From Candidatus Gastranaerophilales bacterium (GTDB lineage: Bacteria > Cyanobacteriota > Vampirovibrionia > Gastranaerophilales > Gastranaerophilaceae): 33,461 nucleotides of DNA. Positions 13,951 to 14,739 of this stretch are shown here, piece by piece (the first letter of the stretch is position 1; each line of letters begins with the position of its first letter). The stretch lies in NCBI GenBank assembly GCA_944325585.1, contig CALVAS010000015.1:1-33461 (forward strand). The letters are read 5' to 3'. The notes below the pieces were generated by a model that was not told where the DNA came from, ran no database searches, and saw only the letters and a program-made list of their open reading frames with translations. The position numbers were made by a program, and so were the translations under genes.

Positions 13951-13979
13951 TTGCAAAACCTTTAAATTTACGATATAAT
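13951..13979 (+). promoter_or_regulatory. Promoter of the prepilin-like gene
   Basis: TTGCAA (13951-13956), a 17-base spacer and TATAAT (13974-13979) form one of the best promoters in the window. Start near 13986 leaves a leader of about 33 bases containing AAGGAG (14004-14009) and then ATG 14019. Confidence 0.75.
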
Positions 13980-14018
13980 CTATTTGAAAAATTATTAAAT
14001 AAGAAGGAGCTTAAAAAC

Positions 14019-14069
14019 ATGAAAATGCACAGTATGATTGAATTTCGGGGGGGGGGGGGCAACCCGTAA
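14019..14069 (+). other. Shine-Dalgarno-led start region of the prepilin gene, out of frame at G13
   Basis: ATG 14019 follows AAGGAG (14004-14009) by 9 bases and is the only well-equipped start for the pilin gene. In the sequence as given it reads MKMHSMIEFR, four Gly, N, P and then TAA at 14067-14069. Removing one G (12 instead of 13) would carry this frame straight into the prepilin frame, giving a 30-residue leader before A|FTMAE. Confidence 0.75.
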
Positions 14070-14739
14070 AACAGCTCCTGAGGGTGATTTATCGAAGTAT
14101 AAACCTGCCTTTACCATGGCAGAGGTTCTTATAACTCTTGGCATAATCGGAATTGTTGCCGCTATGACGTTGCCTTCATTGATAGGCAAGTGGCAGGAAA
14201 AACAGTGGAAAGTCGCCTATAAAAAAGCCTATTCAAGTATATCGCAGGCTTTTTTAAGAATGCAGGCAAATGAAGAATTCTTAGATATTTCTGATCTGAC
14301 ACCAAATGATAGCGGCGTTTCAGGAAATGATAATTGCGGTGAAAATTTCAAGATAGTATCAAATTATTTTAATGCGGTAAAAAAATGTTTTGATAATAAT
14401 GGCTGTGAATGTTTTGAATGCGCCAAAGGGCAGGCAGGGATAGGTACTGCTCCGGATTATTTGGGCGGCGGCAACAACAGGTATGCATTTATAGATTATT
14501 CAGGTATGAGCTGGTTTTTGTACTCGAATAGAGAATGGCCCATTATTGTTGATGTAAACGGGTTTAAAGCTCCGAACAAACTGGGAAAAGATAGATTCGT
14601 AATGAAATTTGCAGTAAATAACAGTGCAAGCATGTATATAGAATCTGCCAATACAATTCAGCCATGGGATGATATTATTGAAAAGCAGCGCTGGTGCCCT
14701 GAAGGCAATTGTTTTTACAGCTCGTGGCTCCTAGAGTGA
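14038..14739 (+). CDS. Prepilin-type N-terminal domain protein (type IV pilin/pseudopilin-like), frame interrupted by a poly-G tract
   Basis: The readable frame has the class III signal: basic leader ending YKPA, then FTMAEVLITLGIIGIVAAMTLPSLI, with the Glu at +5 and a hydrophobic helix. Ala rather than Gly precedes the cleavage site. The remaining about 165 residues hold Cys pairs (NNGCECFECAKG, RWCPEGNCF) and the segment IIVDVNGFKAPNKLGKDRF, which I associate with pilin-like proteins of Gastranaerophilales. The product would be exported, cleaved by a PilD-type peptidase and either assembled in a pilus or kept as a minor pseudopilin. As given, this frame opens only at TTG 14038, which has no Shine-Dalgarno; the equipped ATG 14019 is one base out of frame across 13 G's. 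The end overlaps the convergent usp gene by 9 bases. Confidence 0.85.
   Translation: MNFGGGGATRKTAPEGDLSKYKPAFTMAEVLITLGIIGIVAAMTLPSLIGKWQEKQWKVAYKKAYSSISQAFLRMQANEEFLDISDLTPNDSGVSGNDNCGENFKIVSNYFNAVKKCFDNNGCECFECAKGQAGIGTAPDYLGGGNNRYAFIDYSGMSWFLYSNREWPIIVDVNGFKAPNKLGKDRFVMKFAVNNSASMYIESANTIQPWDDIIEKQRWCPEGNCFYSSWLLE
14047..14059 (+). repeat. Homopolymeric G13 tract
   Basis: Thirteen consecutive G residues inside the start of a predicted surface-protein gene, in otherwise AT-rich DNA. Tracts of this length slip readily at replication. A length of 12 (or 9, or 15) puts the pilin in frame with its Shine-Dalgarno-led ATG; 13 does not. Confidence 0.95.

Follow-up and report, generated by a model that had tools for sequence, protein, structure and literature searches.

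What does a run of 13 consecutive G's do when it separates a well-equipped start codon from a prepilin reading frame that lies one base out of register? The run occurs in a window (the whole stretch of DNA that was analyzed, 33,461 nucleotides of a contig from a Candidatus Gastranaerophilales bacterium) for which a sequence-only reading had claimed a phase-variable prepilin in the OFF frame. That claim remains the best reading, and it is now supported by a genome-wide cassette with ON and OFF alleles; switching in cells is inferred. The features of the cassette in the window are as follows.

13951 to 13979, forward strand: promoter, TTGCAA (13951-13956), a 17-base spacer, and TATAAT (13974-13979), from the sequence
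14005 to 14011, forward strand: Shine-Dalgarno (SD) arm AGGAGCT of a hairpin, the SD sequence AAGGAG itself being 14004-14009, from the sequence, minimum free energy (MFE) and centroid pairing with 14073-14079, and covariation
14019 to 14069, forward strand: leader open reading frame (ORF) in the OFF frame, ATG at 14019, 16 residues (MKMHSMIEFRGGGGNP) and then TAA, from the sequence
14038 to 14040, forward strand: TTG in the pilin frame without an SD, a weak alternative start, from the sequence
14047 to 14059, forward strand: G13 tract, the proposed slippage switch, from the sequence, shuffles, and the genome tract count
14067 to 14069, forward strand: OFF-frame stop codon TAA, adjoining the anti-SD, from the sequence
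14073 to 14079, forward strand: anti-SD AGCTCCT, exact complement of the SD arm AGGAGCT, from the sequence and fold prediction
14083 to 14739, forward strand: prepilin coding region 3' of the switch, 218 residues in an open frame, from PF07963 N_methyl and homologues

Every base of the promoter, the AAGGAG, and the ATG that the sequence-only reading had named is present, its G13 and in-frame stop from 14067 are exact, and the TTG at 14038 lies in the pilin frame with no SD ahead of it, as it had said. The prepilin frame (..FTMAEVLITLGIIG.., with its stop at 14737-14739) is offset by one base from the leader, and the two are joined when the tract length in the window is divisible by 3, in agreement with the junction claimed for 12 or 15 G's. 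What that reading missed were the genome-wide, family-specific occurrence of the cassette, the conserved default-OFF frame, and the SD/anti-SD pair; the complement of the SD arm at 14073-14079 is our addition. In 58 of 124 elements, an exact TATAAT lies between -70 and -12 relative to the start of the leader, versus 3 of 121 control stretches.

By its N-terminus, the downstream product is a predicted type IV prepilin. PF07963 N_methyl matched the window product with an E value of 2.2e-4, 0.1 bit below the cut-off; the search of the whole genome, in which the match spans 14107-14169, placed it above the cut-off. Homologues of the window pilin in other genomes are 58 to 70% identical, and the pilin profile retrieves type IV pilins in the PDB via the N-terminal helix. 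A structure model of modest confidence (mean pLDDT, 68) has a helix at 7 to 62 followed by strands or sheet; a Foldseek search with this model was uninformative, since its best matches were not significant and gonococcal pilin reached only an E value of 1.1. No LPXTG motif occurs in the translation, so the product does not qualify as a sortase-dependent pilin. Judging from profile searches, the genome encodes a prepilin peptidase (Peptidase_A24, one), PilB/T-type ATPases (T2SSE, four over the cut-off), and a PilC-type protein (T2SSF, one protein).

The window has a GC content of 36%, and its second-longest G or C run is 5 bases; a 9-G run never arose in shuffles of it (expected, 0.00). Across the window's genome (1.76 Mb in 105 contigs), 37 runs of 10 to 14 G's are present, against ∼0.1 runs of at least 10 G's expected by a rough iid estimate. 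Thus, the G13 of the window is not due to chance. A search for other poly-G tracts at pilin gene starts in related genomes, which the sequence-only reading had recommended, finds dozens in one conserved context (19 to 63 tracts per genome); the four genomes of the genus other than the window's have 43, 19, 33, and 63. Most, indeed almost all, of the 37 tracts share this cassette context, whose observed order is its own promoter, AAGGAGCT (the SD), ATG, a leader of 19 to 38 nt, the tract, CAACCCG or CACCCG, a stop codon, AGCTCCT, and a prepilin in another frame. Comparison of the profile search with the tract list places the cassette ahead of about 27 of the 45 PF07963 N_methyl places in the window's genome; N_methyl genes without it mostly have an ordinary SD-ATG start directly before KKAFTLAEVL. 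In a few cassettes the tract is interrupted (L283, L284, L297, and L299), and L299 reads through in the ON frame.

The exact pattern AGGAGCT..G10..AGCTCCT was searched for in 84,980 species genomes and matched 66 stretches, nearly all of them labelled Candidatus Gastranaerophilales, Melainabacteria, or uncultured bacterium. Two matches fall in the record "Fusobacterium sp. CAG:439," which is probably a mislabelled MAG, and one Pseudomonas match looks like chance. A pattern with looser arms was found in 39 of the 100 genomes sampled within the family and in 0 of 17 genomes from five other families of the order, with reversed-pattern controls near zero; the most matches in one genome by this search was 60 (G149). 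No copy of the cassette element was found in the viral contigs searched.

For a survey of frame states, tracts in five genomes of the genus were picked by poly-G alone, with neither the SD nor the anti-SD required. This yielded 152 tracts, 125 with an SD-led leader and 110 with an open-frame prepilin downstream. Among these 110 tract-pilin pairs, 88 were in a common OFF frame (the default), 12 were ON, and 10 were in the third frame. The modal tract length was 13, 11, or 12 depending on which of three classes the flank belonged to, and the association between length and flank had a chi-square of 95, with the caveat that the copies are related and not independent. Because the modal length tracks the flanking bases, the frame is conserved and not the length. 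From the tract to the prepilin motif, the ON frame was open in 106 of 114 cases; the two remaining frames together were open in 8 of 228. In 105 of the 110 pilin-linked elements of the genus, the default frame meets a stop no more than 12 nt from the tract (third frame, 8 of 110), and the anti-SD mostly starts 1 to 6 nt past this OFF-frame stop. Given the openness of the ON frame and the early default stop, both the ON product and the early stop appear, from these sequence patterns, to be under selection.

Near-identical copies were also observed to differ by a single G. For instance, L030 in the window's genome (G13, OFF) shares its 10-nt flank and 98.6% identity over 292 nt with L203 from another species (G12, ON), L021 (G11, ON) and L051 (G12, OFF), both from the window's genome, are 98.8% identical over 169 nt, and L031 (G12) and L166 (G13) are 96.3% identical over 298 nt. 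Such differences are, as far as comparison of deposited copies can tell, the pattern expected from DNA slippage. The tract has what is required of a slippage locus: it is long enough, a change of ±1 alters the frame, and ON and OFF alleles occur in close copies.

We consider it likely that every cassette turns a single type IV prepilin-like gene ON and OFF by DNA slippage, with switching in cells inferred in the absence of read data. In the proposed mechanism, the cassette's own promoter and strong SD would start transcription and translation of the short leader ORF, which at the default tract length would stop just 5' of the anti-SD and give no pilin. Replication slippage by one G (a loss in the window's genus, a gain in some sister genera) would fuse the leader to the prepilin, and the signal of the fused product would be processed by the genome's prepilin peptidase. 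The hairpin would close the SD after the ribosome ends at the OFF stop, making a tight OFF state, or it would gate initiation in both states. Each cell would show few of the dozens of pilins, and the switch would be reversible and frequent; both are inferences made without reads, and the surface fibres on display may differ from cell to cell. Some findings count against this explanation. ON is rare and the default frame is strongly kept, unlike fast neutral drift of tract length, and many default-state copies in the genus carry a pilin-frame TTG, so that some expression is possible.

Conservation of the default frame despite changes in the flank would also suit slippage by RNA polymerase, in which cells with default DNA make a small, steady share of in-frame mRNA and selection holds the DNA length. 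Stem-loop-mediated transcriptional slippage is a known phenomenon, reportedly described by Penno and colleagues in 2015. However, the near-identical copies with DNA alleles one G apart, including in-frame ON alleles, and the in-coding methyltransferase tracts, of which one copy is ON and two are OFF, show that slippage takes place in DNA as well, and we regard an RNA-level explanation as unlikely, without dismissing it.

The organization on which the proposed DNA switch depends is retained in sister genera, whose leaders are of unrelated sequence yet keep the order SD, leader, G10 to G12, stop, and anti-SD. The default OFF length is one G short of ON in g22 and g7 and one over in the window's genus. 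Among G034 loci, G10 was OFF in 13 and G11 was ON in 2, and the tract-to-stop spacers differ by 3 nt (CACAGGCCTAG and CAAAGGCCGCTTAG), with the leader's own frame preserved. To reach ON, the window's genus and g11 need a shift of +1, and g22, g7, and others of the family need one of -1. This bears directly on programmed ribosomal frameshifting at the G-run (RF2-like +1, or -1) as the means of joining leader and pilin: a fixed frameshift cannot serve both directions, and the RF2-type comparison failed. Further, the distance from tract to stop is variable and no slip codon is shared, DNA alleles in the ON frame exist, and the interrupted tract of L299 is in the ON frame. Frameshifting would account for a fixed default frame with an early stop, and the G-run resembles, by inference, an internal SD, but we consider it very unlikely.

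A pilin-frame ATG, GTG, or TTG is present in the leader of 60 of the 88 default-state elements of the genus, versus 0 of 88 in the third frame, as might be anticipated if the pilin were translated from an internal start (TTG 14038 in the window) and the upstream leader were only a regulatory uORF. The remaining 28 of 88 elements have no such codon, and outside the genus only 3 of 53 OFF elements have one (50 of 53 without); as TTG 14038 also has no SD, we give this account hardly any credence. Homopolymer sequencing or assembly error, which the sequence-only reading had kept as its alternative and which the enrichment of tracts at contig ends might favor were breaks not equally explained by shared leaders, can be set aside with near certainty, given the tract counts in all five genomes of the genus, the one-base differences between near-identical copies, and the recurrence of this architecture across dozens of genomes that were assembled separately, as well as in sister genera whose leaders are unrelated. 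Frameshifting, an internal start, and sequencing error were all rejected as general explanations after testing.

As to the contig ends themselves, 11 of the 37 tracts in the window's genome (G000) lie within 130 nt of one, compared with ∼0.6 expected (contigs C7, C17, C43, C45, C59, C65, C68, C71, C73, and C89). These are probably assembly breaks at shared leader-tract sequence. We dropped the enrichment as a sign of length mixtures, because loci sharing leaders explain assembly breaks equally well. In the same genome, L040 (end of C43) and L049 (end of C71) have the same pilin start joined at the poly-G to two different upstream sequences, which could stem either from recombination at the tract or from a branch in the assembly.

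The second component of the cassette is the SD/anti-SD hairpin. In a 101-nt stretch of the window, the 7-bp pairing AGGAGCT/AGCTCCT is the core of both the MFE and centroid structures; taken as a whole, the stretch gives no better a fold than shuffled sequence (z, 0.27), and only the 7-bp stem is supported. The mean energy of the SD:anti-SD duplex was -11.1 kcal/mol for own partners, -10.67 for partners permuted within the genome (19 of 5,000 permutations as good), and -5.3 for a control stretch. The base after GGAG pairs with the base before CTCC in 62 of 77 elements versus 52.7 when permuted within the genome (1/1,000), and the same flanking pair across all genera forms in 117 of 158 versus 105 (0/1,000). 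The search pattern for elements outside the genus itself demanded GGAG and CTCC, and thus only the adjoining bases count there as evidence of pairing. Positions further out in the stem showed no consistent excess over permutation, and a stem longer than two pairs beyond GGAG was unsupported overall. By eye, G106 has longer complementarity (GGAGGTTAA/TTAACCTCC), as in some genera.

Pairing potential and covariation are therefore observed, and covarying SD/anti-SD pairing, our criterion for an SD-sequestering leader, was met. Within the ON frame, GCTCC is read in all three phases among copies (32, 30, and 18), and so it is not retained for its amino acids. An Rfam scan of the element gave nothing near threshold, with no family at its gathering score. 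That the hairpin closes the SD, and that the anti-SD gates initiation, is inferred without translation data. From the position of the OFF stop, adjoining the anti-SD, we suspect that a ribosome terminating at that codon exposes the anti-SD when it is released. In the ON state, too, the stem can form again once a ribosome has passed, and the escape of the ON state from the hairpin is not settled by the present data. More tentatively, and with less confidence than we place in slippage itself, the cassette may be a two-layer switch of a new kind, in which the frame at the tract decides whether the ribosome stops abutting the anti-SD and hence whether the hairpin closes. One G would then set both product and initiation, and selection would hold pilins by the dozen in a particular OFF frame from which a single slip leads to ON, so that this uncultured gut lineage of the cyanobacteria would gain combinatorial diversity of its surface fibres.

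Type IV pilus genes of Neisseria are varied by repeat slippage, and Neisseria has one expressed pilin locus plus silent cassettes; here, in contrast, promoters and pilins are many and separate, and every pilin has a switch of its own. The closest likeness is to another gut commensal, Bifidobacterium breve, in which bbr_0113 and bbr_1889 have a G-tract between a highly transcribed short ORF and an out-of-frame pilin ORF without an SD, joined frames give pili, and replication slippage was demonstrated by deep sequencing and enriched in mice (PMC9187656). The likeness is one of architecture only, with expression inferred in our case. B. breve belongs to a different phylum and has two such loci per genome encoding sortase (LPXTG) pili, whereas in the present case a genome has dozens of type IV prepilins, and the cassette has a conserved hairpin with the OFF stop adjoining it; a word search of PMC9187656 found no mention of a hairpin. 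Campylobacter likewise has poly-G tracts within ORFs and a genome-wide phasome, with a median of 20 tracts per genome in C. jejuni, lengths that peak at 9 to 10, and an ON proportion near neutral drift in the larger data set (PhasomeIt, PMC6321876). The genomes here differ in having 19 to 63 tracts, mostly of 12 G's, most in one repeated cassette, and 11% ON. As in RNA thermometers and riboswitch-type expression platforms, the SD pairs in cis with a downstream anti-SD, but here the anti-SD is inside the coding region, past a slippage-prone tract. In the 5' UTR of Mycobacterium tuberculosis espR, a poly-G indel is thought to act via SD accessibility (PMC11898584); that tract alters the fold directly, while ours, in a leader ORF, alters the reading frame. 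We found no literature linking Gastranaerophilales or Melainabacteria to phase-variable pilins, subscription papers and preprints being outside the search. With G-tract slippage at an out-of-frame pilin already described in B. breve, the mechanism class is known; what appears to be new is the hairpin cassette, its conserved default-OFF frame, the scale, and the lineage.

If the proposed switch is real, non-photosynthetic gut Cyanobacteriota have a very dense phase-variable surface repertoire (19 to 63 tracts per ∼2-Mb genome in five genomes of the genus). The cassette would be a defined, portable RNA/DNA element whose frame state, OFF stop, and hairpin logic are testable in Escherichia coli. 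Moreover, because the deposited allele is OFF, many such pilin genes are likely misannotated or missed by automatic annotation.

Glycosyltransferases, acyltransferases, and DNA methyltransferases are classic contingency genes, and all three are also interrupted by poly-G. A GT8 glycosyltransferase (PF01501) stands behind an SD-led leader and an in-frame G10 (L171, G003:C4:172400-174300, tract at locus 1569), indicating that the switch is used beyond pilins. In L190 (G006:C8:21800-31620, tracts at locus 1480, 2809, 3468, and 9512), three N6/N4-type DNA methyltransferase genes contain in-coding tracts of G12, G10, and G9, with only the G10 in frame, and a C5-cytosine methyltransferase contains an out-of-frame G10; this is likely a phase-variable methylation cluster. 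An acyltransferase (PF01757) is broken by an out-of-frame G12 in L167 (G003:C3:163300-165150, tract at locus 1550), and the 20 bases past this tract (CAACCCGTAAAACAGCTCCT) are identical to the pilin cassette's 3' half, a hint that recombination occurs at poly-G. Finally, in-frame palindromic repeats encoding HSELDSES- or VILNLIQNLS-like peptides lengthen the interval between tract and prepilin signal in G003 cassettes (e.g., L153, L158, and L177).
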